From IMG/VR virus record IMGVR_UViG_3300032308_002457, positions 1 through 47,636 of that record: a DNA stretch of 47,636 nucleotides; one strand, written 5' to 3'. The notes below the pieces were generated by a model, which did no database searches, was not told the origin of the DNA, and saw nothing but the letters and a program-made list of their open reading frames with translations. The translations under genes were made by a program, and so were the position numbers. Positions 15,550 to 36,555 of this stretch are shown here, piece by piece. Each line of letters opens with the position of its first letter. Positions within the stretch are counted from its first letter, which is position 1. This stretch comes from a virus.

Positions 15550-15987
15550 TTATATAATTACTTCTTTTTGGAACTTATCCAATTCATTTTTAGGAGGAGT
15601 TCCTATTCTTACATTTATTATGCCATTATAATAATCTTCTCGCAAAAGAACATTTCTATCTATTTGTTCTTTTATTTCATAATAAGCTAAAGCCCATTTA
15701 GAATCGCAAGTACGAATAATTTTAAATTCAAAGTTTTCTTTACTGTACTTAATAATGTCTTCGTTCAAATCTTTAGAAGATGAAGTATAAGATTTCCAAT
15801 CTGAAGATGTGACAGATATTCTATTTCTTTTATTTCCCTTTAAAGGTTTTCTTTTAATACGCATAAAACATTGTTTTTTACCAATATATTTTTTATTGGT
15901 CAGTTTATTGGTAATCTCATACAAAAAACCAAATGTTTCTTCAGTTAAATTAACATTTTCTGACAAAATCCAGTGACCAGTATCCAT
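15550..15987 (-). CDS. GIY-YIG-type endonuclease (SegE-like)
   Basis: This 145-residue protein has a degenerate GIY-YIG core: GFLYEITNKLTNKKYIGKKQ, with F-L-Y in the place of GIY and KYIG as the second element. This is followed by WKSYTSSSKDLNEDI and FEFKIIRTCDSKWALAYYEIKEQ, whose Glu can serve as the metal ligand. The spacing fits the SegE-like GIY-YIG family known from T4-type phages. Such proteins are homing nucleases or branched-DNA nicking enzymes. It overlaps the upstream gene stop by one base (TAATG). The changed first GIY residue makes activity less certain. Confidence 0.6.
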   Translation of the reverse strand: MDTGHWILSENVNLTEETFGFLYEITNKLTNKKYIGKKQCFMRIKRKPLKGNKRNRISVTSSDWKSYTSSSKDLNEDIIKYSKENFEFKIIRTCDSKWALAYYEIKEQIDRNVLLREDYYNGIINVRIGTPPKNELDKFQKEVII

Positions 15988-18108: not shown

Positions 18109-18784
18109 AAAGAAAACAATTAAAAAAACAAAAAAAACTAAAAAAGTTTATAAAAAGAAAAAAAAGAATTATAAAAAACTTGATATAAATGAAAATTCGT
18201 TGGACGATGCTTTAGACGAAGATATAGAAGAAAAAGAAGAGGATGAAAATGTAGAAGACGTAGAAGATGAAGATGTAGAAGAAAAGGATGAAGATGTAGA
18301 AGAATTATATGAAGATGAAATTGAAATTTATGAAGTAGAAAAAGCAAAAAAAGCAAAAAAAAGACCAAAAAAAGAAGAATTTTACGTAGAACCTAAAAAA
18401 TTTGACGAAGAGATTGTAAAATATTATGAAAGTGGCGTATTAACTGATGAATTAGCACAAATGGTTAATAAAATTGCCCACAAATTAAGCTATGCGGGTA
18501 ATTTTATTAATTATACCTATCGTGATGATATGGTTGGAGATGCTTTAATAAGAATGTTTAAAGCATTAATGTCTAAAAAGTACGATAGAGAAAAGGGAAC
18601 AAACCCGTTTTCATATTTTACAAGAATAGCATTTAATGCATTTAGAAACCGAATTAAAAAAGAAAAGCATATCAACGAAACACATATAAAATACAGAGAA
18701 GAATTGTTTCACATGTCAGAAAATTACAACAATTACACAAAAAACAATAAAAGTTCTAGTTTTGATAAAATAACCAATGATTAA
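18083..18784 (+). CDS. 55: Late-transcription sigma factor gp55 with charged N-terminal extension
   Basis: This 233-residue protein, longer than T4 gp55 (about 185), carries a gp55-type sigma2-like core from about residue 110: LAQMVNKIAHKL, NYTYRDDMVGDALIRMFKAL, and NPFSYFTRIAFNAFRNRIKKEK. gp55 directs host RNA polymerase to TATAAATA late promoters together with the gp45 clamp, which is also encoded here (41982). The first 100 residues are strikingly ordered by charge: about 30 mostly Lys, then about 45 mostly Glu/Asp, then a KKAKKAKKRPKKE patch. The C-terminus SSSFDKITND lacks the clear hydrophobic clamp-binding tail (SLDFL-like) of T4 gp55. It overlaps uvsW and gene 47. Confidence 0.88.
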   Translation: MKKKTSNPKKKTIKKTKKTKKVYKKKKKNYKKLDINENSLDDALDEDIEEKEEDENVEDVEDEDVEEKDEDVEELYEDEIEIYEVEKAKKAKKRPKKEEFYVEPKKFDEEIVKYYESGVLTDELAQMVNKIAHKLSYAGNFINYTYRDDMVGDALIRMFKALMSKKYDREKGTNPFSYFTRIAFNAFRNRIKKEKHINETHIKYREELFHMSENYNNYTKNNKSSSFDKITND

Positions 18785-19823
18785 AACTAACAAAATTGGG
18801 TGTTTTTCGGATATCCATATCGGAATTTATCAAGATAATCCGATATGGCATAACATAAGTTTAAATTTTGCAAAATGGGCATCAGAAAAATACTTAGAAT
18901 CTGGTATAAACGATATAATAATTTTAGGAGACGTATTTCATAACAGAACTGAAATATCTGTTACTACTTTAGATGTAGCTAAAAAGTTTTTTGACTATTT
19001 TAAAGATTTTAATGTTTACATATTAGCAGGAAATCATGACAGTTTTTACAAAGATAATAGTAAAGTGAATTCTATTTCTATTTTTGATGGATGGAACAAC
19101 ATTAAAGTAATAGACAAAGAACCTTTTTTGCTTAAAATTGCAAATAAACAAACTCTTTTGGTTCCTTGGGGAACGTCATATGATGATATCACAAATTGTG
19201 ATATTGTTTTTGGACATTTTGAAATCGTTTCTTTTTATATGAATTCTTATAAAGTATGTGATCATGGATTCACATCAGAAAATCTATTTAAAAAAGCAAA
19301 AGTTATAATGTCTGGACATTTTCATAAAAAAGATCATAGAACATACGATAGCGGCGAAATAATATATCTAGGAAGCCCTTATCAACAAAATTATGGGGAT
19401 TCTTTAGATGAAAGAGGAATTTATATTTATGACGTAAATGAAAATGAAATATCATTCATTCAAAATGATATTTCTCCAAAGCATAAAAAAATATCAATTA
19501 AAAAAATATTATCTGGAGAAATTAACACAGAATATTTAAAACAAAATGTAACAAAAAATCATATCAGTTTAGTCATAGATGCTAAAATAGATGATGAAAA
19601 AATTCTTTTATTGAAAGGAAAGTTGCAAAAACTTGAACCGGAAACACTTAGAATAGAATATTCCGACACAAAAAGTTTAGATCAATTAAATTCAAATTTA
19701 ACCGACATTGAAACCGTAGACCTATTAAAGGATATTGAAAATTATGTAATGTCGCTAGATATTAAAGACAAAAAAGAAGTTGTTTCTTACGTAAAAGAAA
19801 TATATAATAATTTAACATCATGA
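18777..19823 (+). CDS. 47: Recombination nuclease subunit gp47 (Mre11/SbcD-like)
   Basis: This 348-residue calcineurin-type phosphoesterase has the metal-binding motifs FSDIHIG (Asp12, His14), GDVFHNR (Asp52), AGNHD (Asn86, His87), FGHFE and SGHFHKKDH. gp47 is the nuclease subunit that pairs with gp46 to resect double-strand ends and degrade host DNA. It overlaps gene 55 by 8 bp and the first glycan-island gene by ATGA. Its partner gene 46 lies 9.6 kb downstream, separated by the glycan island, whereas in T4 the two are neighbours. Confidence 0.93.
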   Translation: MIKTNKIGCFSDIHIGIYQDNPIWHNISLNFAKWASEKYLESGINDIIILGDVFHNRTEISVTTLDVAKKFFDYFKDFNVYILAGNHDSFYKDNSKVNSISIFDGWNNIKVIDKEPFLLKIANKQTLLVPWGTSYDDITNCDIVFGHFEIVSFYMNSYKVCDHGFTSENLFKKAKVIMSGHFHKKDHRTYDSGEIIYLGSPYQQNYGDSLDERGIYIYDVNENEISFIQNDISPKHKKISIKKILSGEINTEYLKQNVTKNHISLVIDAKIDDEKILLLKGKLQKLEPETLRIEYSDTKSLDQLNSNLTDIETVDLLKDIENYVMSLDIKDKKEVVSYVKEIYNNLTS

Positions 19824-20617
19824 AAAACGAAATAGGAATTGGAATAATTGATTTGTATTCAAAAGAGTTTTTGAATTCTTGTATTTCTTCAATACCGGAA
19901 GAATATAAAGAAAATTTATGGATTGTATCAAATAAAATACACTCTTTAGAAAATGTAACAAATTATACAAAACAAGTTTCTATGGCAACTCTTAGAAATT
20001 ATTTAATCTCACAAATGAGAATCAAGGGATTAAAGTATTATTTTCTTTTAAATTCTAACGTAGAAGTAAAAAATCCATTAATTTTTGAAAATACAATAAA
20101 GTTGGCTAAAACTTTTGGAACATGGTTTATGACCGGAGCAGGTTCAAACAATGTTACATTAGAAGAAGATACTTTAAATATTTCATTAAATGTATCTCCA
20201 CAATTTAATAGTAATTTTATATTTTTATACTCCGGTATTGTAAAAAACTTTGGATTTTTCGATGAAAGATTTTATAACACATTAGATTTGGATGTTATTG
20301 ATTATCTTAATAAGTTAAGAGATCAAAAAACATATCCACCTCGACACTATAATCCCACAATTAGTGCAGAAGATATAATAGAAAAAAAAGAAAACATACA
20401 AAAAATAAATTTTAAAGATTTACCAAAATCAAAAGATGATTATAAACCAGATTCTGACAAATCTTTAGAACTATCGGTTGCATTTTTTTATCATAAATAC
20501 AAATATTTGCCATCACAAAATGAACCAGCAGGTATTACTCAAAAAGAACTTTTAGAAGCCATGGAAAAATTACAAAAAACTTACGGAGATAACCAAAATG
20601 GTGATTCCAAATTATAA
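19820..20617 (+). CDS. Degenerate GT-A-like protein, first island gene
   Basis: This 265-residue protein resembles the next two genes: GIGIIDLYSKEFLNSCISSIP parallels their opening strand, and LKYYFLLNSNVEV stands where they have a DxD-type LLEDDIEI. FGFFDERFYNTLDLDVIDY parallels their late strand. The metal-binding acidic pair is thus lost and it is probably not an active transferase. Its tail ITQKELLEAMEKLQKTYG matches a linker in the third gene (ITIKDLL followed by LQTNY). It may be a scaffold or acceptor-binding paralogue. The start overlaps the gene 47 stop (ATGA). Confidence 0.6.
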   Translation: MKNEIGIGIIDLYSKEFLNSCISSIPEEYKENLWIVSNKIHSLENVTNYTKQVSMATLRNYLISQMRIKGLKYYFLLNSNVEVKNPLIFENTIKLAKTFGTWFMTGAGSNNVTLEEDTLNISLNVSPQFNSNFIFLYSGIVKNFGFFDERFYNTLDLDVIDYLNKLRDQKTYPPRHYNPTISAEDIIEKKENIQKINFKDLPKSKDDYKPDSDKSLELSVAFFYHKYKYLPSQNEPAGITQKELLEAMEKLQKTYGDNQNGDSKL

Positions 20618-21410
20618 AATAGGTTTAGGATTAATAACTTGCGATAGACCAGATTTTTTTGAAAAATCTTCTAACTCTCTTTTTAAATTAGATTGTGTAA
20701 AAGTTGTTGTAGATGATGGAGAAAATAAAGTTAAAACGATCTTAGACAAGATTGATACAGAAACCCCTAAATCAGGTGTTGGAAAGGCTAAAAATAAAGC
20801 ATTAAACCATCTAATAAATGAAAAATGTGAACACATCTTTTTATTGGAAGATGATATAGAAATTCTGGATGAAAAAATTTTTGAATTGTATATAAATGCA
20901 TCAGAATCTACCGGCATAAAACATTTTAATTTTGGATTACACGGAAATCACAATTTAGATTATTTGGGAAGACCAAATATCCGAAAAACTATAAATTATC
21001 CAAATAACACAAAAATAAATTTATATCCTAATTTATTGGGAGCTTTTAGTTATTACCACAAAGATGTTTTAAATAAAGTAGGCTTAATGGATGAAAGCTT
21101 TTATAACGCTTTGGAGCATGTAGATCATACATATCAGACTATTAAAGGAGGATTTCATCCTCCGTTTAGATGGTTTGCAGATGTAGAAAATTCTCAATTA
21201 TATTTAAAAGATATAGTTCCCGACCATCAACAATCAAAAATTCGCAACGAAGCAGATTTTATGAAAACATTTCAATCTGCGTTAGATATTTTTATAAAGA
21301 AAAATGGATTTTCTGTAGTTCATGGATATGGGCCACCAGAAAAAAATGTTTTAGAAAAAGAATTGTTAGAAAATTTAAAGGAAATATGGAAAAAACATCA
21401 CAAAAAATAG
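20598..21410 (+). CDS. GT-A family glycosyltransferase
   Basis: This 270-residue single-domain GT-A enzyme has nucleotide-sugar-binding strand IGLGLITCDRPDFF, AKNKALNHLI, the DxD-type motif HIFLLEDDIEI, and the acceptor-side LMDESFYNALEHVDHTY with its Glu-His-Asp. It should transfer a sugar from a nucleotide donor; donor and acceptor are unknown. It overlaps the previous gene by 20 bp and the next by 25 bp. It is clearly paralogous to the N-terminal half of the next gene (STGIKHFNF against STGIHHLCY; PPFRWFADV against PPFWYFPDI), so the pair arose by tandem duplication. Confidence 0.8.
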   Translation: MVIPNYKIGLGLITCDRPDFFEKSSNSLFKLDCVKVVVDDGENKVKTILDKIDTETPKSGVGKAKNKALNHLINEKCEHIFLLEDDIEILDEKIFELYINASESTGIKHFNFGLHGNHNLDYLGRPNIRKTINYPNNTKINLYPNLLGAFSYYHKDVLNKVGLMDESFYNALEHVDHTYQTIKGGFHPPFRWFADVENSQLYLKDIVPDHQQSKIRNEADFMKTFQSALDIFIKKNGFSVVHGYGPPEKNVLEKELLENLKEIWKKHHKK

Positions 21411-22864
21411 GTGTTGGAATTATTACTTTCAATAGACCAGAATACTATCAAAAAGTTTATAAATCTATACCCAAAAATAAAATAGACTTTTTAGTCGTTG
21501 TTAATGACGGAGAAATTCCATATGTGGATCAAAAAGATGCCAATACAGTTATTCATAATAAAAAACAATTAGGCGTAGCTGTATCTAAAAATAAAGCTCT
21601 TAAAGAATTAATTGATTTAGGCTGTGAGCATTTATTCTTAATAGAAGATGATATTCTTATTAAAGATGAAAATGTTTTTGATGAATATCTCAAAGCAGCA
21701 AATTCGACAGGTATTCATCATTTATGCTATGAAAAAGTAGCTGGAAACGAAAAATCTTTAAAATATACTCACGAACAACCAGATGGAGTAAAATTAAGTT
21801 TTTATCATAATCCACAAGGTGCATTTATGTATATAAATGCAAAATTAATTAAAAAGTTGGGTTATTTTGATGAAGGTTATATAAATGCATTTGAACATAT
21901 AGATTTTGCTTACAATTTAATTCAAAAAAATGTAGCCCCTCCATTTTGGTATTTTCCGGATATTTATAACAGTGATGAATATTTAGAAGAAATTAAAGGC
22001 AGTAGCGAAAATTCTACAATTACAAATAAAGAAAAATACCAAGAAAATTGGCAAATATCTGCACAATATTTTACTAAAAAATGGAATCATTTTACAAATT
22101 CTATAAAAGAAGTTACAATAAAAGATCTGTTAAAAAGTTTAATAGCATTACAGACAAACTATAGTCGTAAAAAATTGGTCAATAAAGATAAAAATTTGTG
22201 TGTTATTGTTCCATACAGAGATAGAAAAACTGCATTAGATAAGTTAATTCCAGAACTTAAAAATGTTTTGTCCAAGCAAGTTTCGCATTTTGATATTGTT
22301 GTTGTAGAACAAAATGATGAAAAATTATTCAACAAAGGTTTATTAAACAACATAGCTTTTATATTAAATCCTAATTTTGATTATTATTGTTTTCATGACG
22401 TTGATTTAATCCCTGAAATTGCGGATTATTCTTATCCAGAAAATCCTGTACATATGAGTACATATTGTAGCCAATTTAATTATGTACGTAATCCTGACGC
22501 AACTATGGGCGGCGTTATTGTTTTTAGAAAAGAACATTTCGAAGCAGCAAATGGATATCCAAATGATTATGTTGGTTGGGGTTCTGAAGATAGAACTTTA
22601 GGAAATAGAGTCGAAAAAGTTGGTTTAAAGGTTTATACACATCCATTTGGAAAATTCTATTCTGTTCCACATCAAATAAGATTAAAAAATCAAACTGAAT
22701 ATGATGCACATTATGTTAATGGACAAAAAAGAGAAGATGAATTTTTGGGGAAAACTAATATGTTTGACAATGGTTTAAAAAATATTAATTTAGACAATTA
22801 TAAAATTGAAATCAATCAACAATTACATTTTAAACATATCAAAATATTAAAATATGAAAATTAA
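21386..22864 (+). CDS. Two-domain glycosyltransferase: GT-A plus beta-1,4-galactosyltransferase-like
   Basis: The start is the ATG at 21386 (492 residues), which has AAAGGA upstream and begins at the conserved strand IGVGIITFNRPEYY. A longer frame from 21170 only runs through the previous gene. Residues 1-250 are a GT-A domain like the previous gene, with LIEDDILI. Residues about 270-450 closely match the beta-4-galactosyltransferase (GT7) fold: VIVPYRDR (273-280), FHDVDLIP with Asp338 and Asp340, MGGVIVFRKEHF, and NGYPNDYVGWGSEDRTL (389-405) with the WGxED acceptor/catalytic site. Such domains are best known in animals. Two active sites in one chain suggest sequential sugar addition. The linkage made is unknown. 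Confidence 0.82.
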   Translation: MEKTSQKIGVGIITFNRPEYYQKVYKSIPKNKIDFLVVVNDGEIPYVDQKDANTVIHNKKQLGVAVSKNKALKELIDLGCEHLFLIEDDILIKDENVFDEYLKAANSTGIHHLCYEKVAGNEKSLKYTHEQPDGVKLSFYHNPQGAFMYINAKLIKKLGYFDEGYINAFEHIDFAYNLIQKNVAPPFWYFPDIYNSDEYLEEIKGSSENSTITNKEKYQENWQISAQYFTKKWNHFTNSIKEVTIKDLLKSLIALQTNYSRKKLVNKDKNLCVIVPYRDRKTALDKLIPELKNVLSKQVSHFDIVVVEQNDEKLFNKGLLNNIAFILNPNFDYYCFHDVDLIPEIADYSYPENPVHMSTYCSQFNYVRNPDATMGGVIVFRKEHFEAANGYPNDYVGWGSEDRTLGNRVEKVGLKVYTHPFGKFYSVPHQIRLKNQTEYDAHYVNGQKREDEFLGKTNMFDNGLKNINLDNYKIEINQQLHFKHIKILKYEN

Positions 22865-23777
22865 ATTATATACAAATACTGAATTCTTTAAAGAAGATGA
22901 TTTAAAAAATTGGGAAGAGTTGATATTATTAATACCTTTTTTTAATGTTGAACTTTATAAAAAACTAACAAAGGATATACAAAAAATAACATACGAATCA
23001 ATTTTTACTAAATTGTTTTTTAATGGTAAAAATGTTTTAGAAAGATCTAAAAGCATAGAAGAAAGTGACTATTGTTTATTGCCATTTAGATTTAATTTAA
23101 GTGATGAAAGATTATATATCATATGTGAAAACGCAAAAAGATATAACAAAAAAGTGTTAGCATTTTTAAATGATGATGACTTTTCTTGCTTTCCCATACC
23201 AGAAAATTTAATTTTATTTAGAACATCATTATTAAAAAGTTATAAAAGAATTAATGAGCATGTTTTTCCTGTTATATTACCAGATTTGTATGCACCCGAT
23301 TACATATCTCCCGAAGATTCAATAGGATTTTGCGGTAGATCTGCACACGGTAGGGAAGAAATTATAAACGAAATAAATAAACTGGAGTATAAAAAAAATA
23401 TAATAATTAGAGATGGATACTGGTTTCATTGGGCTGAAACAGAAAAGGATTTATTAAAATCTAAGGTAGAATATAACGAAAACTTGTTACAAAATAAATA
23501 TACTTTGTGTTATAAAGGAAACGGAAATTACTCTTGGCGTTTTTATGAATCTTTGATGTTTGATAGAATACCAGTGTTGATCGATTCTGATACAGAATTG
23601 CCATTTAAAAATCAAATTGACTGGAATAAACATATAATACATATACAAAAAAATGATATTAAAAATTTAGATGAAATATTAAGAAATTTTAATGTTGATT
23701 CAATGAAAAATAGAAATTTATGGTTAAAATATTTTTCTTGTGATGGTTTTGTGAAAAACATATTTTCTTTATTATGA
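22854..23777 (+). CDS. Exostosin-like (GT47-type) glycosyltransferase
   Basis: This 307-residue protein has a C-terminal half with the exostosin signature order: IGFCGRSAHGREE, then YTLCYKGNGNYSWRFYE, then RIPVLIDSDTELPFKNQIDW, and finally a short helical end. In GT47 proteins this half binds the nucleotide sugar (GT-B fold). The N-terminal half (SDYCLLPFRFNLSDERLY) is compatible with the acceptor-binding half. Exostosin-type enzymes add glucuronic acid, xylose, galactose or arabinose in known systems; here the sugar cannot be told. It overlaps both neighbours (11 bp and ATGA). Confidence 0.75.
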   Translation: MKIKLYTNTEFFKEDDLKNWEELILLIPFFNVELYKKLTKDIQKITYESIFTKLFFNGKNVLERSKSIEESDYCLLPFRFNLSDERLYIICENAKRYNKKVLAFLNDDDFSCFPIPENLILFRTSLLKSYKRINEHVFPVILPDLYAPDYISPEDSIGFCGRSAHGREEIINEINKLEYKKNIIIRDGYWFHWAETEKDLLKSKVEYNENLLQNKYTLCYKGNGNYSWRFYESLMFDRIPVLIDSDTELPFKNQIDWNKHIIHIQKNDIKNLDEILRNFNVDSMKNRNLWLKYFSCDGFVKNIFSLL

Positions 23778-24778
23778 AAAAAATATTATTTTTAGAAGAA
23801 CAATTTTCCATGCAAGGCACAACCAGAGCATTGTTGGATTACGCATATTATAATCAAAAAATATTAGGAAACGAATCAGTAATTGCTTTTGGTAAAAAGC
23901 AAAATAATTTTCCTTGGAATGAAAATTTTTATAATCAAATTTTAGAAAATACATTTAATAGTATTAAAAATAATTTTCAATTGTTATTTTATAAACAAAA
24001 TTACAACATTTTAAATGAATATATACAAAATAATAATTTTGATGCTATTTATAATATAAAATCTGGTGAAATAACTGGTTTTTTTACAAATGACACTAAA
24101 ATGTTAATACACGCAGTATTTCCACAACCAATTTCTAATGTTCATGGTCACAAATATGCATTTGTTTCAAAATATTTGTCAGAAAAATGTGGTAATGGAA
24201 AAATACCGTATGTTCCCCATATGGTAAATGTACCAAAAATAGATATAGATTTATCGAAGATAGAAATAAGACAAAAATATAACATCCCAATAGATGCTTT
24301 TGTTTATGGTAGAATTGGTGCATTCGATGATTTTAATTTGCCTTTTGTTCACAAAGCAATAATAGACATCATAGATAAAAGAAAAGATTTATATTTTTTA
24401 ATGATAAGCACCATGCCATTTTATAAACACGAAAGGATAATATATGTAGATCCTTTGTATGATATTAAGGAAAAATATCAACATATAGCATCTTGTGATG
24501 CGGCTATACACGCAAGACATCACGGAGAAACATTTGGATTGGGTATAGCTGAATTTTGCTGGATGAATAAGCCTATAGTAACATGGAAACATGGACATGA
24601 AAAAGGATATATTGAAATATTAAAAAATGATGCTATTTATTATGATAACGAAAACGATTTAAAGGACATATTTTTAAATTTTTCACTAGAAAAAGGAAAA
24701 GATTATAATTCTTATAGAGAATTTTCACCAGAAAATGTTATGAATCAATTTAATGATGTGTTTTTAAAAGATATATGA
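23774..24778 (+). CDS. GT-B glycosyltransferase (GT4-like)
   Basis: This 334-residue protein has a C-terminal domain with the GT4-type donor site: DAAIHARHHGETFGLGIAEFCWMNKPIVT, carrying the Glu-x7-Glu pair that contacts the nucleotide sugar. It is preceded by the linker FVYGRIGAFDDFNLPFVHKAI. The N-terminus starts with a short strand IILFLEEQFSMQGTTRALLDYA-like in layout (KKILFLEEQFSMQG), compatible with the acceptor-side Rossmann fold. It overlaps the previous gene (ATGA) and the next (ATGA), so it is translated as part of the island. Donor and acceptor are unknown. Confidence 0.75.
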   Translation: MKKILFLEEQFSMQGTTRALLDYAYYNQKILGNESVIAFGKKQNNFPWNENFYNQILENTFNSIKNNFQLLFYKQNYNILNEYIQNNNFDAIYNIKSGEITGFFTNDTKMLIHAVFPQPISNVHGHKYAFVSKYLSEKCGNGKIPYVPHMVNVPKIDIDLSKIEIRQKYNIPIDAFVYGRIGAFDDFNLPFVHKAIIDIIDKRKDLYFLMISTMPFYKHERIIYVDPLYDIKEKYQHIASCDAAIHARHHGETFGLGIAEFCWMNKPIVTWKHGHEKGYIEILKNDAIYYDNENDLKDIFLNFSLEKGKDYNSYREFSPENVMNQFNDVFLKDI

Positions 24779-26079
24779 CAACTAAAATTTTAATTAAATT
24801 TCCAACTAGAGAAAGACCCGAAAAATTCTTTCAAGTATTGAATTTATATTATCAAAAAGCAAAAGATATTAATAATATAGAATTTTTAATATCCTGTGAT
24901 GAAGATGATAGTACTATGAACAATCCTGATGTTATCAGGAAACTAAACAATTCTAAAAAACACATAAATTTGAATTATTATTTTAGAAATAATAAAAGTA
25001 AAGTTGAAGCTATCAATTCAGATATTGAAAAAAGTCAAAATTGGGACATTTTATTGCTCGCATCTGATGATATGATACCAATTTGTGATGGATATGATCA
25101 AATTATAAGAGATGATATGTATACATATCATAGAAATGGAGATGGTGTTCTTTGGTATAACGATGGAAACAGAAACGACATTAATACACTATGTATTTTT
25201 GGTAAAAAATACTATGAAAGATTTAATTATATATATAATCCAGAATATACCAGTTTGTGGTGTGATAATGAATTTACTGATGTTTCTATTTTTTTAGGAA
25301 AATATGTAAAAATAAATAAAACTATAATAGAACATGCCCATCCTGCTTATCAAAAAGCTAATTTTGATAGATTATATGCTAAAAATGAATCTTTTTTAAA
25401 AAAAGACGAAGATGTTTACAATAGAAGAAAAGTTAAAAATTTCGATTTGAATAAATTTGTACCTTATTTATCGATATTAACTCCAAGCGTTCCATCTAGA
25501 TTGGATAATAGTTTAAAAAAATTAATTGAAAAAATAGAAAAACAAATAAAAGAAAATAATCTTGAAAAACAAGTAGAACATTTAATATTTGTTGATAATA
25601 AAATAAGAACAGTTGGAAGAAAAAGAGACAATTTAGTTCAATGCGCGGTTGGTCAATTTATTGCTTTTGTAGACGACGATGATGATATATCAGATGATTA
25701 TGTTTTGGAATTAGTAAATGCTATAAAAAATAATTCAGATGTCGATGTCATAACATTTAAACAAGAATGTCAGATAGAAAATTATCCAAAATCAATTGCT
25801 GTCTTTGGATTAAAAAATGAACAACAACCATATTCACCGGGTGTAATCTTTACAAGAAAACCGTATCATATATGCGCTTGGAATAGACTATTAGCAAAAA
25901 ATTACAATGTTCCTAGTAATAATATATGCGAAGATCAAGGGTGGGTTTGTCAAATGTGGGATGTTGCAAAAACGGAACATTACATAGATAAAATATTACA
26001 TACATATAAACATTCAGTGTCTAATACGACATGTTTACAACATGGTAATAATAGTGTATATAACAATACACAAATATAA
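24775..26079 (+). CDS. Tandem GT-A glycosyltransferase (two GT2-like domains)
   Basis: This 434-residue protein has two GT-A-like halves. Residues 1 to about 200 contain ILIKFPTRERPEKF, FLISCDEDDSTM and ILLLASDDMIP. Residues about 225-430 contain YLSILTPSVPSRLDNS, VGRKRDNLVQCA and the strong DxD motif FIAFVDDDDDIS, then CAWNRLLAKN and CEDQGWVCQMW, typical of GT2. The second half looks fully active and the first is more divergent. Double GT-A proteins of this kind often build repeating or two-step sugar chains. It overlaps the GT4-like gene by ATGA. Confidence 0.75.
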   Translation: MTTKILIKFPTRERPEKFFQVLNLYYQKAKDINNIEFLISCDEDDSTMNNPDVIRKLNNSKKHINLNYYFRNNKSKVEAINSDIEKSQNWDILLLASDDMIPICDGYDQIIRDDMYTYHRNGDGVLWYNDGNRNDINTLCIFGKKYYERFNYIYNPEYTSLWCDNEFTDVSIFLGKYVKINKTIIEHAHPAYQKANFDRLYAKNESFLKKDEDVYNRRKVKNFDLNKFVPYLSILTPSVPSRLDNSLKKLIEKIEKQIKENNLEKQVEHLIFVDNKIRTVGRKRDNLVQCAVGQFIAFVDDDDDISDDYVLELVNAIKNNSDVDVITFKQECQIENYPKSIAVFGLKNEQQPYSPGVIFTRKPYHICAWNRLLAKNYNVPSNNICEDQGWVCQMWDVAKTEHYIDKILHTYKHSVSNTTCLQHGNNSVYNNTQI

Positions 26080-26083
26080 AATT

Positions 26084-26623
26084 ATGATAACACAAAAATA
26101 TAAAATATTAAAAGAACAACCATCTGATATAAATGAACACCTAGATACTCTTAAAAGGTATGCAGAAGAGTGTGATATAGTAGTTGAACTTGGAACAGGT
26201 CTAACAATTTCTACTTGGGCTTTTTTAGCAGCAAAACCTAAAAAATTTATAACCGTTGATATAAATCAACCAACAGATAGTATAAATTTCAATGAACTTA
26301 TAAATGAAGCAAAAAATTTGAATGTAGATTTTGAATTTATACTATCGGATAGTAGAAAAATAGATCTACCAGAACATGATCTTTTGTTCATTGATACTAT
26401 GCACAATTATGATGTTTTAAAAGAAGAATTATTAAAACATCATAGCAAAGTTAAAAAATACATAATTTTTCATGATACTATTTCATTTGGAAATGCGGAT
26501 GAATTTGGTAATGGTATAGGTCTAGTTCCTGCAATCAAAGAATTTTTAAAAAATAATCCAGAATGGAAAGAAAAAGAAACTTATATCAATAATAATGGAT
26601 TGTCTGTTTTAATGAGAAAATAA
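26084..26623 (+). CDS. Class I methyltransferase-like protein
   Basis: The ATG at 26084 is preferred (179 residues), because the frame upstream to 26042 runs only through the preceding gene's end. The SAM-binding motif I is IVVELGTGLTISTWAF, followed by FITVDINQP (acidic end of strand 2), FILSDSRKI, and DLLFIDTMHNYDVLKEEL, with HDTISFG after strand 5. This pattern fits the methyltransferase-24/cephalosporin-hydroxylase-like group found in sugar loci. In the island it could methylate a sugar hydroxyl or an acceptor. No substrate can be read from the sequence. Confidence 0.72.
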   Translation: MITQKYKILKEQPSDINEHLDTLKRYAEECDIVVELGTGLTISTWAFLAAKPKKFITVDINQPTDSINFNELINEAKNLNVDFEFILSDSRKIDLPEHDLLFIDTMHNYDVLKEELLKHHSKVKKYIIFHDTISFGNADEFGNGIGLVPAIKEFLKNNPEWKEKETYINNNGLSVLMRK

Positions 26624-27346
26624 ATGTATATAGGAATTACAACATTTAAAGAAAGGTTTGATAGTCATTTTAAATTCCTTTTAAATGATATAAAAGGGAC
26701 ACCAGCTATTATATCTGTTAATGCATCATATAAAAATGGTCTTTGTAATGAATATCGAAAACAAATGTTAAATTTATTGTCCTTACATGATGATAATGTA
26801 AGTCCTATTTTTTATCAGCAAATGAGAGGTTGTGCAAAAATGTGGAATGATTTAATAATACATTCACCTACAGAACATATATTAATTTGTAATGATGATA
26901 TAAGAATCATAGACTGCGAAAAACTTATTAATAATTGCAAAGAAATGTCAAAGCAACATGATTTATTTACTATAAACAATTCCATGTCACACTTTGTTAT
27001 TAGTAAAAAATTTGCTATTAAAATAGGATGGTTTGATGAAAGATTTTTAGGATTTGGTCATGAGGATGGTGATATGATATGGAGGCATTTCAAAATGTTT
27101 AATAAAACATTTCCAAATTATTTCGATGATAGTATAATAGATAAAAGTTCGAACATTATCGACACAGAAATAAAAACCTCTATGGGAAAATATACACATT
27201 TTAATGAACTTTTTATTCAACAAAAATATATTCCTGATGAAAACGGTTTACAATGCACATTTGATCAAAAAAGAAGTCTCCATTTAGAAAATATTACACA
27301 ATATCCTTACGAAAATTTTTTTAATAATAATAAAAATATGTTATAA
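26624..27346 (+). CDS. GT-A glycosyltransferase-like protein
   Basis: This 240-residue protein starts immediately after the methyltransferase stop. The opening strand MYIGITTFKERFDSHF, the acidic motif EHILICNDDIRI in the DxD place, and IGWFDERFLGFGHEDGDMIW match the GT-A pattern of the earlier island genes (LLEDDIEI; FDEGYINAFEHID) and the GHED/WGxED acceptor site. It is therefore a likely active member of the same paralogous group. It ends 5 bp before the next start, with a TATAAT-like string (27342-27347) across its stop that might give internal transcription. Confidence 0.7.
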   Translation: MYIGITTFKERFDSHFKFLLNDIKGTPAIISVNASYKNGLCNEYRKQMLNLLSLHDDNVSPIFYQQMRGCAKMWNDLIIHSPTEHILICNDDIRIIDCEKLINNCKEMSKQHDLFTINNSMSHFVISKKFAIKIGWFDERFLGFGHEDGDMIWRHFKMFNKTFPNYFDDSIIDKSSNIIDTEIKTSMGKYTHFNELFIQQKYIPDENGLQCTFDQKRSLHLENITQYPYENFFNNNKNML

Positions 27347-27351
27347 TAAGT

Positions 27352-28161
27352 ATGGATGATACATTAATCATTAATCACAATGCTGGTTTTTTTTCATGTT
27401 GTTCTATTAGATTGTTTCAACTTATAGATTTTTTTAACAAAAACAAAAGATTGCCAACTCGTATAGATGCATCAAAACAATTTTCTTTTTATAAACAAAA
27501 CCTATTCGATGAAAATGAAGATTTAAATTTTTTATTTTTTAAAGATTATAATCATGTAGAAGAAACTATTGAATATTTTGAGAATGTAAATTTTTCATGG
27601 GATAATCAATTTATACCATACAAAAATATAGATATTCAAAAAATAAATTTTTTCATTCGAAAATATTTTACATTAAGTAATTTTATTAAAAATATAATAA
27701 CCGAAACTGAAAAAAAATATGAAATTAATTATGATAATACAATATCGGTTTGTTACAGAGGAAACGATAAATGTCGAGAAACCAACATTGCAAAATATGA
27801 AGAATTTTTTATAAAATGTGATGAACTTAATAAAAAAAATCAAAATTGTAAATTTTTTTTACAAACTGATGAGTTAGAATTTTTAAAACAATTTTATAAC
27901 AATTTTCCAAATACGTTTCATTTACAAGAAATACCCGTTATTAATAAAAATAAAGATTTGGTGGTGCATTATACAATAAATCCATCTGATAAACCAACAT
28001 TTGCTTGTGATATATTAAAATCAATATATATGTTGTCTAAAAGTAAACATGTTATAACACATAGTGGAAATTGTGGAATGTGGATATATTTATTCAGAAA
28101 TAATGTTGAAAATTTTCACCAATATTTAAATCACAATAATAATTTTTTAGGTTGGATATGA
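27352..28161 (+). CDS. Fucosyltransferase-like (GT-B) protein
   Basis: This 269-residue protein has a central motif SVCYRGNDKCRETNIAKYEEF that resembles the H-x-R-x-x-D donor motif of alpha-1,2/1,6- and O-fucosyltransferases. It is followed by FFLQTDELEFLKQF and, near the end, SKHVITHSGNCGMWIYLFR, which parallels the phosphate-binding part of that group. The first His is replaced by Tyr, so the assignment is tentative. A different GT-B family or an inactive homologue is possible. The next gene starts in its stop codon (ATGA). Confidence 0.55.
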   Translation: MDDTLIINHNAGFFSCCSIRLFQLIDFFNKNKRLPTRIDASKQFSFYKQNLFDENEDLNFLFFKDYNHVEETIEYFENVNFSWDNQFIPYKNIDIQKINFFIRKYFTLSNFIKNIITETEKKYEINYDNTISVCYRGNDKCRETNIAKYEEFFIKCDELNKKNQNCKFFLQTDELEFLKQFYNNFPNTFHLQEIPVINKNKDLVVHYTINPSDKPTFACDILKSIYMLSKSKHVITHSGNCGMWIYLFRNNVENFHQYLNHNNNFLGWI

Positions 28162-28868
28162 AATATATATTAAATCAATATCAAGGATTAGGAGATATTT
28201 TATTTTGCGAACCGATAGCAAAAAAACTTTGGGAAAATGGTAAAAATGAGATATTTTGGCCTATTAATAGTGAATTCATATGGTTAAAGGAATATTTTCC
28301 ATATATCAATTTTGTTGATATGAATTATTTTGTTTTTAACTATGAAAGCACACATTTTGGTATCATAAAAAATGATATATTTTCAATACCATTAAGGTTC
28401 GCTAACCCAATTGTAAGAAAATTAAATCTCAACGATTATTCTCAAAACTATCATTGTATGTTGGATAAATATCGATTACTAGATTTACCTTTAGATATGT
28501 GGAAAACCATGACATGGAAGAGAAATCATGTAAAAGAAAATGAATTATTTCAACATTTAATAAAAAAACAAAAATATATTCTAGTTAATACTTTTTTTAG
28601 CGGGGGTGAAATAGATATTACAATAGATAATCCACAAAATTATCAAATAGTGAATATGAAAAAAGAAAAAGGATATACCTTATTGGATTGGGCAAAAATT
28701 ATTGAAAATGCTACGGAAATACATACGGTTTCCACTTCAAATTTGTATTTAATTGAAACTTTACCGATTAAAGCTGAAAATGTTTTTTTATATCTTAGAA
28801 AACCCAACGAAAAAGATTTTGACAGTATATCAGAATTTGTAAACAAAAATTTTATATTGATAAATTAA
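28158..28868 (+). CDS. GT9/heptosyltransferase-like GT-B protein
   Basis: The ATG at 28158 (236 residues) is chosen over a TTG at 28152, because it overlaps the previous stop as ATGA like its neighbours. The N-terminus ILNQYQGLGDILFCEPIAKKLW matches the GLGD-x-hydrophobic-x-P opening of GT9-type proteins. The C-terminal half has KYILVNTFFSGGE and ATEIHTVSTSNLYLIETLPI, which resembles the GT-B donor domain where GT9 has a T/S-rich loop. It could transfer a heptose or other sugar, but the family match is by pattern only. Confidence 0.55.
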   Translation: MKYILNQYQGLGDILFCEPIAKKLWENGKNEIFWPINSEFIWLKEYFPYINFVDMNYFVFNYESTHFGIIKNDIFSIPLRFANPIVRKLNLNDYSQNYHCMLDKYRLLDLPLDMWKTMTWKRNHVKENELFQHLIKKQKYILVNTFFSGGEIDITIDNPQNYQIVNMKKEKGYTLLDWAKIIENATEIHTVSTSNLYLIETLPIKAENVFLYLRKPNEKDFDSISEFVNKNFILIN

Positions 28869-28870
28869 AT

Positions 28871-28888
28871 TTTTATATTAATATAAAA
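28871..28888. repeat. Perfect 18-bp AT palindrome
   Basis: TTTTATATTAATATAAAA reads the same on both strands and lies in the 31-bp gap before the last island gene. It could be an operator or part of a promoter (TATAAA at its right end). Together with the hairpin at 29393-29419 it brackets the methyltransferase gene. Confidence 0.6.
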
Positions 28889-28899
28889 GATGGTGTATC

Positions 28900-29388
28900 A
28901 TGAAAACTATATCATATAATAATAAAATATATCCAAAATTTCAATCGCAAGGAAACGCATCACAATTTGCGATACCGTATGCTAAACATTTTTGTAAAGG
29001 AATTGGAGTTGATGTTGGATGTATGAAAAAAGAATGGGCATTTCCTAATTCTATTTTGGTAGATGTATCATTTAATGATGGATATCACGCATTAAATTTA
29101 CCACAACAAAATTTAGATTATATATATTCTAGTCATTGTTTAGAACATATAACAAATTGGGTGGATGTATTAGATTACTGGTATTCATGTTTAAAAATTG
29201 GTGGTGTTATTTTTTTATATTTACCGACATATGATCAAGAATACTGGCGTCCTTGGAATAATAGGAAGCATATGAATATTTTTAAACCAAAAATAATTAA
29301 AGACTGGATGAAACATAAAAACTTTAAAAATATTTTTTACAGTAAAAAAGATTTGAATCATTCCTTTATGATTGTTGGTGAAAAATGA
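28900..29388 (+). CDS. SAM-dependent methyltransferase (Methyltransf_11-like)
   Basis: This 162-residue protein has the short class I fold: KGIGVDVGCMKKEW as motif I (with GVDVGC), a short strand ILVDVSFNDGYHAL, then LDYIYSSHCLEHITNWVDVLDYW, in which SSHCLEHI is the familiar S-x-x-LEH signature. GGVIFLYLPTYD follows as strand 5. These enzymes often methylate sugar or lipid-linked intermediates in O-antigen-type loci. It is the last gene of the island and is set off by gaps of 31 and 66 bp with inverted repeats, so it may be a separate unit. Confidence 0.78.
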   Translation: MKTISYNNKIYPKFQSQGNASQFAIPYAKHFCKGIGVDVGCMKKEWAFPNSILVDVSFNDGYHALNLPQQNLDYIYSSHCLEHITNWVDVLDYWYSCLKIGGVIFLYLPTYDQEYWRPWNNRKHMNIFKPKIIKDWMKHKNFKNIFYSKKDLNHSFMIVGEK

Positions 29389-29419: not shown

Positions 29420-29454
29420 ATTGATATTTACGTTTTTTCATGTACCATTTATAT

Positions 29455-31251
29455 ATGAATGTCGTTTTTAATACCTTAAAAGTTAAAAATTTTTTATCTG
29501 TTGGTGAACTTCCAGTAGAAATTAAATTCCAAAAAGGTTTGAATTTGATAACCGGAAACAATACAGATAACCAAACTCGAAACGGTGTTGGTAAATCTTC
29601 TGTTATAGAAGCTATTTTTTGGTGCTTATTCGGAAATACTATCCGAGACATCAAAAATGATAAAATAATTCATAACCAATCTAAAAAAGGTTGTGAAGTT
29701 GAGTTGAATTTTGATGTGATTGATTCAAAAAACAACAAAGAAACTTTTACAATTAAAAGATATTTGGGTCCAAGTAAAATCGAAGTATGGAATGGTGACA
29801 AAAATATTACATTATCGACTATACCGGCAAATGATGAGTATATAAAAACTCTTATAAGAGCAAATGAAGAGTTGTTTAACAATTCTGTTATTATGACAGC
29901 AAATAATACTTTGCCGTTCATGGCTCAAAAGAAAATAGACAAGAGAAAGTTTATAGAAGGAGTACTGAATTTAAGTATTTTTAACGAAATGCTTCTTAAA
30001 ACCAGATCAGACTATAACGAAATTAAAAAAGAAAATGATTTATTGTCCAATTCATTTATCAATGAGCAAAAAAATTTAGAAATTTTTGAAAAACAAATTG
30101 TAAAACAAAAACAACAAAAAGAAGAAAATATAAACAATTTTCAAAAATTAATAAAAAACACGGAATTACAAATTCAAGAATTAAAAACATCAGATGTGGA
30201 TTTTTTAAAATTAAAAGAAACTTTTGAAAAAAATGAAAATAAAATTCAAGAGTTGGAAAATTTATCAGAAAATATCAACAAAAATTTGATCGATTTAAGT
30301 TCTAAACTTTCTGAATTTAAAATAAAAATTGAACAAAGCCAAAAAACAAAAAATGAACTTGTTAAAAAGAAAGAAATATGTCCAATCTGCAATAGAAAAT
30401 ATTCAAATGAAGAAGTTTTATTAGTAAATGAAAAAATAATTGAAATAGACAAAGAATTCAATGAATTAACAGAACAAAAAAACAAAACGAGTGTCGAAAT
30501 TCAAAATAAAAATGAAAAAAAAGAAGAAATTAAAAAACTAGTATTGCAAATTAAACAAAAAAATAAAAACTTGGAAGAAATTAAACAAAAAGAAGAATTA
30601 AAGGGAGAAAAAATTAAAAATTTAGAAAACAAAATAGAAGAATATAAAGAAAACATAAAAAAAACAAAAAATGAAAAACTTGATTTTGAAGAAGAAATAC
30701 AAAAAATAAATAAAAAAATTAAAAAAATAGAGGATGATTTAAAAAATATTAAGAAAAAATTAGCAATTTTAGATGATGTTAAATTTGTTTTATCTGAAGA
30801 GGGTGTTAAAACATATATAGTTAAAAAATTAATAGATTTATTAAACAACAAATTAAATTTTTATCTTAAAAGATTGGATGCTCCTTGTTCTTGTATTTTT
30901 AATGAACAATTCGAAGAAACAATTTTAAATTCTAATGGAAAAGATTGTTCGTATTTTAATTTTAGTGGAGGAGAAAGAAAAAGAATTGATATAGCTGTTC
31001 TTTTTATGTTTCAAGATGTTTTGAGATTTTATTCTGGTGCTTCGTATTCTATTAATATGTATGATGAATTATTTGATTCTGCAATTGACGAAGCAGGAAC
31101 TGACAAAATAATAGAAATTTTAAGAGAAAGAATAGAAAGTTATAATGAATCAATTTATATAGTTTCTCATAACAAATCATCTTTAAAAAATATGTTTGAT
31201 GATATTATTTTATTGGAAAAATCAAAAGGAAAAACAGTTTTAGTATCTTGA
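29455..31251 (+). CDS. 46: Recombination nuclease subunit gp46 (Rad50/SbcC-like)
   Basis: The ATG at 29455 (598 residues) places the conserved strand NTLKVKNFLSVG at the N-terminus; an ATG at 29440 would add five residues. Walker A is TRNGVGKSSVIEA, after a longer than usual loop. A coiled coil fills residues about 170-430 and is broken by the zinc hook CPIC (about residue 310). The ABC signature is FSGGERKRIDIA, Walker B is YDELFDSAID, and the switch His is in IVSHNKS. gp46 is the ATPase that holds DNA ends for gp47. Its gene is separated from gene 47 by the glycan island. Confidence 0.93.
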   Translation: MNVVFNTLKVKNFLSVGELPVEIKFQKGLNLITGNNTDNQTRNGVGKSSVIEAIFWCLFGNTIRDIKNDKIIHNQSKKGCEVELNFDVIDSKNNKETFTIKRYLGPSKIEVWNGDKNITLSTIPANDEYIKTLIRANEELFNNSVIMTANNTLPFMAQKKIDKRKFIEGVLNLSIFNEMLLKTRSDYNEIKKENDLLSNSFINEQKNLEIFEKQIVKQKQQKEENINNFQKLIKNTELQIQELKTSDVDFLKLKETFEKNENKIQELENLSENINKNLIDLSSKLSEFKIKIEQSQKTKNELVKKKEICPICNRKYSNEEVLLVNEKIIEIDKEFNELTEQKNKTSVEIQNKNEKKEEIKKLVLQIKQKNKNLEEIKQKEELKGEKIKNLENKIEEYKENIKKTKNEKLDFEEEIQKINKKIKKIEDDLKNIKKKLAILDDVKFVLSEEGVKTYIVKKLIDLLNNKLNFYLKRLDAPCSCIFNEQFEETILNSNGKDCSYFNFSGGERKRIDIAVLFMFQDVLRFYSGASYSINMYDELFDSAIDEAGTDKIIEILRERIESYNESIYIVSHNKSSLKNMFDDIILLEKSKGKTVLVS

Positions 31252-31280: not shown

Positions 31281-32579
31281 ATGGCATTAAAAATTAAAAA
31301 CGAACAGAAAGGAAACAGTGTAACATTTCAATATCAACCTGTTAAAGCAGGTATACCAAATGCGCCGATTGGAATGCCATTAGGATCTCCGTTATATACA
31401 TATGTAGGATCCACTCCAACCCACATTCCAGAACCACCGCCTGTAGTAATGCCAGAAGCAAATCTTCCTAGAGCAATTAATTATTATGCGGATTATGGAG
31501 GTTGCGGATTTTGGCGCATGATTTGGCCGGAATTTTTATTAAATGCATATAATAAAGCATGTATATCCGGATTAACTCAAATGATTTTAGACATGCGTTT
31601 TTATGGACCGCAAAAAGCAATAAGAATGCAAAGGCAAGCAACACCAATTCAAAGCGAGTTTATCAAAGAATTAGCAAAACATAGAGAAGAATTAAAATAC
31701 CGTTTAATTTATGAAATAGATGATATAGTTTTTAAAGAAGATATTCCAGACTATAACAGATGCAAAGATGCATTTGTTGATCCAAAAATTGTTCAGAGTA
31801 TTCTGACTATCATGTCAAACATGGACGAAATAACAGTCACATGCAAATACATGAAAGATTATTATATATCCAAAACAGGAAATAAGAATATAACAGTAAT
31901 ACCAAATTATCCACCAAAGTTTTGGTTGGATAGATTTTATGATAAGAAAAGAATAGAAAAGATATACGAGAAGAATAAAAAAAGACCTAGAATTTTGTAT
32001 TCTGGTTCCGGAACACATATCGATGTTCTCAATAGAACAAATTCAATGGATGATTTTCATCATGTTGTATCTTCAATCATCAAAGCTCGTAAAAAATTTA
32101 AATTTGTATGGAAAGGCTGTTATCCATTAGCAGTAAAACCGTTTATTGATAATGGAGAAATGGAGTATATCGAGTGGTCTCCGTTGATGGATTACCCGAA
32201 GGGATTATATGATACCGATTGCAATGCTGCATTTGCCCCTTTAACTGATAATATATTTAATAGATCAAAGAGTAATATTAAAATGATTGAAGCGGGAGGT
32301 ATTGGAATACCTGGTGCATACCAAGATCTCTGCACATACGAAGACGCTGAATTTAAATTTAAAAATGGAGACGATTTAATTGATCAATTAGACTATATAA
32401 CTTCTGATTTTGACCGTTATATGGATTTGTCAGATAAATCTAGGAAGTTTGTTGAAGGATTGTGGCTCGAAGATCATATGGATGAATACGAAGCAATCTA
32501 TTTTACAAAATTTGGTTCTAAAGAAAGAAATGAAAAATCTTCGACATTGATCAAAAACAATCCTGATCAAAAATGTTGA
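31281..32579 (+). CDS. GT-B glycosyltransferase outside the island
   Basis: This 432-residue protein has a Pro-rich N-terminal stretch (about 20-60), then a domain with RLIYEIDDIVF and an IP-Y start, the linker RPRILYSGSGTHIDVLN, and a GT4-like donor domain. That domain has FVWKGCYPLA, YDTDCNAAFAPLTDNIFNRSKSNIKMIEAGGIGIPGAY, where Glu of MIEAGG sits in the usual nucleotide-sugar site. GT4-like proteins of this type recur in large T4-like phages. It sits between gene 46 and the polymerase, outside the main cluster, but probably works with it. The start lacks a Shine-Dalgarno and is preceded by AAATTCTCAT, also found before 35848 in similar form. Confidence 0.78.
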   Translation: MALKIKNEQKGNSVTFQYQPVKAGIPNAPIGMPLGSPLYTYVGSTPTHIPEPPPVVMPEANLPRAINYYADYGGCGFWRMIWPEFLLNAYNKACISGLTQMILDMRFYGPQKAIRMQRQATPIQSEFIKELAKHREELKYRLIYEIDDIVFKEDIPDYNRCKDAFVDPKIVQSILTIMSNMDEITVTCKYMKDYYISKTGNKNITVIPNYPPKFWLDRFYDKKRIEKIYEKNKKRPRILYSGSGTHIDVLNRTNSMDDFHHVVSSIIKARKKFKFVWKGCYPLAVKPFIDNGEMEYIEWSPLMDYPKGLYDTDCNAAFAPLTDNIFNRSKSNIKMIEAGGIGIPGAYQDLCTYEDAEFKFKNGDDLIDQLDYITSDFDRYMDLSDKSRKFVEGLWLEDHMDEYEAIYFTKFGSKERNEKSSTLIKNNPDQKC

Positions 32580-35184: not shown

Positions 35185-35810
35185 AAACAAACAAAATACA
35201 ACTAATAGGTTATTATGGGAACGACGAAATCCATGCTGGATCTGCTTGGACATCGACTAGTAGAGATATTACAGAAGAAAAAAAACAAAGAATCCCTTTA
35301 TTATTAAAAATGCTTGCTGAAAATGGACATCATACTCCGTTTGAAAAATCATCATTGCATTTTTTGGTAACATCTGAAATTGCTTCCCATATTCATTTAT
35401 TAAAACATCGAATTGGTGTGTCAATAAATGCTGAAAGTGCAAGATATAAAGAATTAAAGGAAGATAAATTTTATATTCCTAATGATTGGTCCCCATACTG
35501 GATTAATAAACTTAAAAAATATACGGAAGAAGGATTAAAATTATATCATGAATGTGTTGATAGTCTTGTTAATGATTTAAAAATTGATAGAAAAAGAGCA
35601 AAAGAATCAGCAAGATTTTTTAGAACATATAACACTCAAATTGATTGTGATATAATGTTTAATTGGAGATCATTTTATCATTTTCTATCATTAAGAAATA
35701 AATCCGACTCACAAAAAGAAATTAGAGACATAGCATCAGAAATGTTAAATTTAGTTAAAAATATTGAAGGAAATCCATTTAAAGATACTATAAAAGCTTT
35801 TAGTTTATAA
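35181..35810 (+). CDS. thyX: Flavin-dependent thymidylate synthase ThyX
   Basis: This 209-residue protein, of normal length for ThyX, makes dTMP from dUMP using FAD and methylenetetrahydrofolate. The signature RHRxxSxNxxSxRY is present as KHRIGVSINAESARY (residues 75-89), with Lys in place of the first Arg. HHTPFEKSSLHF upstream is the typical FAD/dUMP segment. It overlaps gene 43 by ATGA, so nucleotide supply is coupled to polymerase synthesis. It may help a phage replicate an AT-rich genome that needs much dTTP. The Lys for Arg change is conservative. Confidence 0.93.
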   Translation: MKTNKIQLIGYYGNDEIHAGSAWTSTSRDITEEKKQRIPLLLKMLAENGHHTPFEKSSLHFLVTSEIASHIHLLKHRIGVSINAESARYKELKEDKFYIPNDWSPYWINKLKKYTEEGLKLYHECVDSLVNDLKIDRKRAKESARFFRTYNTQIDCDIMFNWRSFYHFLSLRNKSDSQKEIRDIASEMLNLVKNIEGNPFKDTIKAFSL

Positions 35811-35847: not shown

Positions 35848-36555
35848 ATGGGAAGAAGATCTACTATTCATTTAAATGAAAGATTTTCAAATCTATTAGT
35901 ATTAGAAATAATACCTTCTAATAAAAGTGGTGAACATTCTAAAGTAAGATGTTTATGTGATTGTGGAAATGAAACTATAGTACAAAGTCATTTACTAAAA
36001 ACAAAAATTAAATCATGTGGTTGTAAAAAAGATTTTTGGGGGGATTTAACGGGTAAAACTTTTGGTAAATTAAAAATTTTAAAAATTATTAAAAAAAATT
36101 CAGAAATTAAAAATAATTGTGGTCATTTATATCTTTGTGAATGTAAAGAATGTAAAAGGTTATACAATTTTCAAGCTTCAATATTAAAAAGAAAAAGATT
36201 TCTAGGATGTAAATGTGATTTAACTAAAAAATCAGCAAAATTAAAAATTTTTTATTCTTATAAAAAAAATGCCGAAAAAAGAAATTTAAAATTCAATTTA
36301 AATTTTGAAGATTTTATAAGAATATGTGAAAATAAATGTGTTTATTGCGGCACTTTAAACAGTAATACCTCAAAAAGCAGTAAACTAAATGAATGGAATT
36401 ATAATGGCATCGATAGGATTGATAATAATAAAGATTACACCATAGACAATGTGTGTTCGTGCTGTAAAACTTGTAATTGGATGAAAAACAAATTATCCAA
36501 ATGTGATTTTTTAAATCATATAAACAAAATTTTCCAAATATTTCTGAAGCTTTAA
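35848..36555 (+). CDS. HNH endonuclease with Cys-rich repeat N-terminus (homing-type)
   Basis: This 235-residue protein has an N-terminal pair of Cys-rich DNA-binding-like repeats: RFSNLLVLEII then CLCDCGNETIVQSHLL and SCGCKK; and KTFGKLKILKII then CECKECKRLYNF and LGCKC. The C-terminal HNH site reads CVYCGT, GIDRIDNNKDYTIDNV and CCKTCNWMKNKLS, with the two zinc CxxC pairs and the catalytic Asp/Asn row. These are standard for free-standing homing endonucleases. It stands between thyX and a small gene and does not break either. A promoter-like AGTATAAG lies 10 bp before the start. Confidence 0.85.
   Translation: MGRRSTIHLNERFSNLLVLEIIPSNKSGEHSKVRCLCDCGNETIVQSHLLKTKIKSCGCKKDFWGDLTGKTFGKLKILKIIKKNSEIKNNCGHLYLCECKECKRLYNFQASILKRKRFLGCKCDLTKKSAKLKIFYSYKKNAEKRNLKFNLNFEDFIRICENKCVYCGTLNSNTSKSSKLNEWNYNGIDRIDNNKDYTIDNVCSCCKTCNWMKNKLSKCDFLNHINKIFQIFLKL

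Follow-up and report, generated by a model that had tools for sequence, protein, structure and literature searches.

A glycosyltransferase island in the 47-46 interval of T4-like phages: a fixed core led by an apparent pseudo-glycosyltransferase, and an exchangeable cassette

Why would a T4-like phage carry a long block of glycosyltransferase (GT) genes between genes 47 and 46, which encode two nuclease subunits? The question is raised by IMG/VR virus record IMGVR_UViG_3300032308_002457, a linear record of 47.6 kb that was analysed over its full length (hereafter, the window). Its gene order is T4-like (uvsY, uvsW, gp55, gp47, island, gp46, g12, DNA polymerase); its DNA polymerase is only ~30% identical to those of the best-ranked named phages. 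Open reading frames, profile searches and predicted structures confirmed an original prediction for this DNA, namely that an eleven-gene, multi-fold island of GTs and methyltransferases separates the two nuclease-subunit genes. The island (positions 19820-29388) is filled by eleven open reading frames (g1 to g11), all on the plus strand (Table 1). The earlier account missed a wider pattern: across the clade this is a hotspot, in which a constant core is joined by a cassette that is exchanged.

The island recurs when the 47-46 interval is compared among relatives. A g1 profile search recovered 68 different g1 sequences. Every one follows gp47, at a distance of ≤60 nucleotides (nt) in 63/68 and of about 0.9-1.5 kb in the other five. 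When only gp47 was used as the query, g1 again adjoined gp47 wherever the contig was long enough (41 contigs). Complete intervals were found in 30 relatives (4.3-11.0 kb) and, together with the window, make up a set of 31 islands that includes three near-duplicate pairs. These contain 313 predicted genes, 298 of them on the plus strand, that fall into 88 families; 43 families have a single member, the g1/g2/g3 family alone is present in 31/31 islands, and the remainder is highly variable. Since the same arrangement stands in dozens of independent contigs, the island is not a chance arrangement. The interval holds two small genes at most in T4, two cyanophages and HTVC008M: 46.1 and 46.2 in T4, a single 85-residue gene in P-RSM1 and one 2OG-Fe(II) oxygenase gene in HTVC008M. 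Genes 47 and 46 of BUCT-ZZ01 overlap each other, and a near-identity search with the whole interval gave no match in named phages.

Cassettes are replaced even between close relatives. Two of these, L012 and L029, are 98% identical in g1, 94% in g2, 90% in g3 and 70% in the fourth gene, and past the fourth gene they share nothing before gp46. The window and L012, at 61% g1 identity, have 6/11 genes in common. Such an identity gradient is what would be expected if distal cassettes were replaced by recombination.

The gene that opens every island, g1, does not look like a working GT by its motifs. Its AlphaFold2 model is confident (predicted local distance difference test score, pLDDT, 91; predicted template modelling score, pTM, 0.90) and has a GT-A fold by Foldseek and VIA, with GalNAc-T2 at Z 13.8 (215 residues aligned, 4.0 A). 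Homology between g1 and g2 extends over the full length (hhalign 99.3%). In the 67 g1 sequences tallied, however, the DXD position reads SN, or SD/TD in some, rather than EDD, and the nucleotide-binding Asp motif of the paralogues is lost; in g2, D40, E84-D85-D86 and H174 are invariant in 54 sequences. The gene is intact throughout and under purifying selection (median ratio of nonsynonymous to synonymous substitution rates, dN/dS, 0.098 in 18 pairs), and the g1 proteins form a single clade with support of 100/100. We found no g1 homologue in named phages and none in 85,000 prokaryote genomes. From its residues, then, g1 appears to be a conserved pseudo-GT.

Profile or structure placed seven members in GT folds (g2, g3, g4, g5 weakly, g6, g8 and g9). 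An eighth, g10, is GT9-like by motif. Both methyltransferases, g7 and g11, were borne out by Pfam. The C-terminal GT7 domain of g3 (PF13733 4e-19, PF02709 8e-17) is close to beta-1,4-galactosyltransferase structures (PDB B4GalT 2.6e-21), and its N-terminal domain matches phrog_2456 (2e-33) as well as 508 Mycobacterium phage records. The weak GT4-type call for g5 is strengthened by an orthologue, L012:14055-15053 (1.8e-5). The GxGD motif of g10 is kept across its 11-member family, and the protein had no Pfam or PDB match and no meaningful NCBIfam match. Searches of g5, g6, g9 and g10 by sequence against solved structures returned nothing, and Glyco_transf_1 had no match in the window. Pfam matches to IL34, gamma-tubulin and p74 fell below the cut-off and were dismissed as chance.

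For g9, which matched nothing by sequence, a fucosyltransferase-like call had been made that the predicted structure upholds. The AlphaFold2 model (mean pLDDT 66, pTM 0.73) gave a best Foldseek match of 2e-6, with fucosyltransferases making up 46/46 matches at E≤0.001. Against FUT8, VIA gave Z 16.3 (230 residues aligned, 3.9 A), and its ranking runs through this group down to POFUT1 at 11.5, with the first unrelated GT at 8.2. An HxRRxDK-like motif is present (R136, G137, D139 and K140 invariant). By modelled fold and motif, g9 thus probably belongs to the fucosyltransferase superfamily and is GT23/GT68-like. Its four relatives were seen only in neighbouring islands, and none was found by pattern in viral and genome collections or in named phages.

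Table 1 Features of the 47-46 interval and its borders in the window.
Feature	Coordinates	Strand	Assignment	Support
gp47	18777..19823	+	SbcD-like nuclease subunit, left border of island	phrog_100 4.7e-62
g1	19820..20617	+	GT-A fold protein without catalytic motifs, universal first gene of island
g2	20598..21410	+	GT-A glycosyltransferase, conserved core	phrog_2456 4.4e-25
g3	21386..22864	+	Two-domain GT, N-terminal g2-like and C-terminal GT7 (beta-1,4-galactosyltransferase-like)
g4	22854..23777	+	Exostosin-like GT47	PF03016 5.6e-14
g5	23774..24778	+	GT4-like (GT-B) glycosyltransferase, weak match	PF00534 0.016
g6	24775..26079	+	Two GT-A domains	phrog_8858 1.2e-30; phrog_14945 1.1e-17
g7	26084..26623	+	Methyltransferase, rhamnosyl O-methyltransferase/CmcI-like	PF04989 7.3e-5, at Pfam cut-off
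g8	26624..27346	+	GT-A, galactosyltransferase-like	PF10111 1.2e-5, just under Pfam cut-off; phrog_29879 2.1e-4
g9	27352..28161	+	Predicted fucosyltransferase fold (FUT8/NodZ/POFUT superfamily)	Predicted structure
g10	28152..28868	+	GT9-like by glycine-rich GxGD motif only	No profile confirmation
g11	28900..29388	+	S-adenosylmethionine-dependent methyltransferase	PF13489 (Methyltransf_23) 6e-13
gp46	29440..31251	+	SbcC-like nuclease subunit, right border of island	phrog_77 2e-94
g12	31281..32579	+	Further GT between gp46 and DNA polymerase	phrog_7162 2.9e-21

The genes are tightly packed, if less so than the claim that all of them overlap: six junctions do (g1/g2, g2/g3, g3/g4, g4/g5, g5/g6 and g9/g10), and the four others inside the island have gaps of 0-31 nt. 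Two of the start positions were revised, g3 starting most likely at 21386 rather than 21170 and g7 at 26084 rather than 26042; g10 starts either with TTG at 28152 or with ATG at 28158. The 4-nt ATGA overlap with gp47 was confirmed at 19820-19823, and this overlap suggests that the island may be expressed together with the recombination genes. No T4 late-promoter octamer was found on the plus strand of 9974-40631, a result that is uninformative on early timing. The G+C content of the island is 25%, against 30% on both sides; because its total and third-position values are similar to those of gp46, its composition gives no strong sign of foreign origin.

With regard to sugar donors, the island of the window indeed holds no nucleotide-sugar gene, as had been noted, but the conclusion that donors come from the host does not extend to all relatives. 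Among 110 genes from twelve complete islands, scanning with Pfam identified five members with a match to Epimerase, three of which also match GDP-mannose dehydratase, together with GT6, GT10, GT11 and GT25 enzymes. Several relatives therefore do not leave all donors to the host, and the pairing of GDP-mannose dehydratase with GT10/GT11 is consistent with fucose as a common component.

What, then, is the island for? With about even confidence, we read it as a soluble assembly line for a glycan, made up of a constant core and a cassette open to exchange, that most likely decorates virion proteins. We infer a reaction order in which the core of g1, g2 and g3 would start the glycan, g2 and g3 adding the first sugars and g1 assisting without catalysis, as a scaffold, a chaperone or a subunit that binds the acceptor. 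The cassette, here g4-g11, would then add several further sugars, among them a likely fucose and a residue of galactose type, and methylate the glycan. The acceptor would most likely be a virion protein in the cytoplasm, so that the particle carries the glycan. Glycan structure would differ between close relatives as a result of cassettes being exchanged by recombination between gp47-g1-g2 and gp46. More tentatively, and with less than even odds, this could be a phage counterpart of surface-antigen variation, in which T4-like particles are coated with a methylated multi-sugar glycan whose fixed core is led by a pseudo-GT and whose elongation cassette is swapped.

Virion proteins, one of the targets proposed originally, gain plausibility from homology. 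The C-terminal domain of g6 matches mycobacteriophage Che8 gp108 (32% over 202 amino acids, 1.9e-16); its named phage relatives are found only in Mycobacterium, Gordonia and Streptomyces phages, and one homologue, LittleE gp15, lies directly after the major capsid gene. Capsid glycosylation of the Che8 type has been reported (PMC11256854, citing Freeman 2023). That the line would be cytosolic is supported by the lack of membrane proteins: with a maximum 19-residue hydropathy cut-off of 1.9, a crude test in which two membrane-protein controls scored 2.2 and 2.6, 0/298 island proteins reached the cut-off and five scored 1.6-1.9. Several points nevertheless weigh against this reading. The island lies in the recombination cluster, away from the virion genes, and homology to the GTs of virion-glycosylating phages would not by itself fix the acceptor. 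According to PMC12619734 (citing Freeman 2023), mycobacteriophage glycans sit at the C-termini of the capsid and tail-tube subunits, and a Ser/Thr-rich C-terminal tail was not seen in the major capsid proteins of six relatives. Finally, g1 may not be inert, given that some GT-A enzymes are active without a metal site; one of these metal-independent enzymes, core 2 GnT, appears in its Foldseek list, so the missing DXD is no proof of inactivity.

The Thr/Asn-rich fibre that had been named as a candidate target was rejected as evidence of glycosylation, its repeats looking like ordinary trimeric fibre repeats. This fibre/spike protein (window 6839-9937) has a C-terminal tail-spike match (phrog_4636) and long TNIGTGTTTG-type repeats. 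The gene at 9989-11227, directly after the tail-fibre-like gene, encodes a leucine-rich-repeat protein of 412 residues whose C-terminal part is rich in Thr.

The glycan could instead be built into the surface polysaccharide of the host (O-chain or capsule) and block superinfection, which we think unlikely. The islands contain GT25, GT9-like, fucosyl- and rhamnosyl O-methyltransferase-like families, and such families also occur in lipopolysaccharide and capsule pathways. A position among recombination genes would also permit action during infection, and the GTs of SAR11 myophages (pelagimyophages) have been read in this way (PMC7029224). The hydropathy test weakens this part of the original prediction, however, as the absence of a detected membrane protein among the 298 leaves nothing to indicate a flippase or transferase of the Gtr type, an initiating phosphotransferase, Wzx or Wzy; by hydropathy, no membrane-bound GtrA/GtrB/GtrC was seen among them. 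A phage that soon lyses its cell would have little time for surface rebuilding, and the named homologues are concentrated in actinobacteriophages, for some of which virion glycosylation has been reported. Quite improbable, in our judgement, is hypermodification of phage DNA with an oligosaccharide, comparable to the T4-type glucosylation of hydroxymethylcytosine (HMC). The island shares its location with replication genes, and in T4, too, a GT gene, a-gt (DNA alpha-glucosyltransferase), adjoins gene 47, but on its other side and from a different GT family. g3 does match phrog_842 (beta-glucosyl-HMC-alpha-glucosyltransferase), weakly at 0.069, and one relative's gene reaches 1.1e-4. Against this, among relatives that are linear contigs and may be incomplete, a search for PF00303 (ThyA/dCMP hydroxymethylase) gave no match in 13 records, some of them contigs of 195-226 kb, a difference from the T4 case as far as these contigs reach. 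The AGT family (PF11440) was not found in 9 records (T4 control 1e-261), and TET/JBP was not found in a search without a positive control.

It is also conceivable that the island is cargo under loose selection, bacterial glycan genes gathered at a hotspot without a common product, for which the 43/88 singleton families and the complete cassette turnover between close relatives could speak. We give this a very small chance, considering that the g1/g2/g3 family is universal, that g1 is under purifying selection, that recognised cassette families are almost all GT, methyltransferase or nucleotide-sugar families, and that nearly all genes lie on one strand.

How does a virion-directed assembly line compare with known systems? 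The mycobacteriophage loci (Che8 gp108-110, Corndog gp35-38 and the similar LittleE gp15-21) likewise cluster phage GT and methyltransferase genes, and they are linked to the island by the homology of the g6 C-terminal domain to Che8 gp108 and LittleE gp15 and by the relation of the g3 N-terminal domain to Mycobacterium phage GTs. They have three to four GTs, whereas the island has eight plus g1, for which no counterpart was found in named phages. The GTs of Corndog and LittleE stand among virion genes (in Corndog, GT and O-methyltransferase genes lie between the portal and protease genes; PMC4351075) rather than splitting gp47 from gp46. The host-recognition clusters of pelagimyophages (HTVC008M and relatives) also belong to T4-like aquatic phages, whose variable regions hold several GTs along with sugar genes, but they have a different location, and no conserved g1-g2-g3 core has been described for them. 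Another sugar cluster of HTVC008M (NC_020484, 124379-133406; L150) follows the ribonucleotide reductase genes and encodes a GT, a methyltransferase, a carbamoyltransferase and a UDP-glucose dehydrogenase. For the possible role of g1, yeast M-Pol I (Mnn9/Van1) offers an analogy in working only: there, one GT activates its partner GT (PMC3787745). Mnn9 is itself described there as a priming glycosyltransferase, whereas g1 looks inactive.

Phage-encoded glycosylation is already known, and, as far as we found in the literature, virion glycosylation has been reported mainly for mycobacteriophages. Searches of the open-access literature turned up neither a GT island in the 47-46 interval nor a conserved GT-like pseudoenzyme in phages. 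The locus points to a whole T4-like clade with a much larger and rapidly exchanged glycosylation toolkit. It also provides an ordered set of enzymes for testing, and with the conserved, catalytically degenerate GT the idea that phages direct glycosylation through a pseudo-glycosyltransferase subunit can be put to the test. New glycosyl- and methyltransferases could, in addition, be drawn from the islands in large number.

Outside the island, g12 is common to many relatives and follows gp46 in L012, L022, L027, L029, L030 and L031. A ThyX gene (Thy1, 2e-31) stands after the DNA polymerase gene at window 35181-35810, and a ThyA-type enzyme was not found in the window or its relatives. Homing/HNH endonuclease-like genes at 15550-15987 and 35848-36555 lie on either side of the recombination-replication block. 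About 1 kb separates the gp55 and gp47 matches in L012 and L029. In two other relatives, L004 (1743-3182) and L008 (2249-3655), the match to gp55, the late sigma factor, is split at residue 145 by ~1 kb, which suggests that gene 55 carries an intron or some other insert there.

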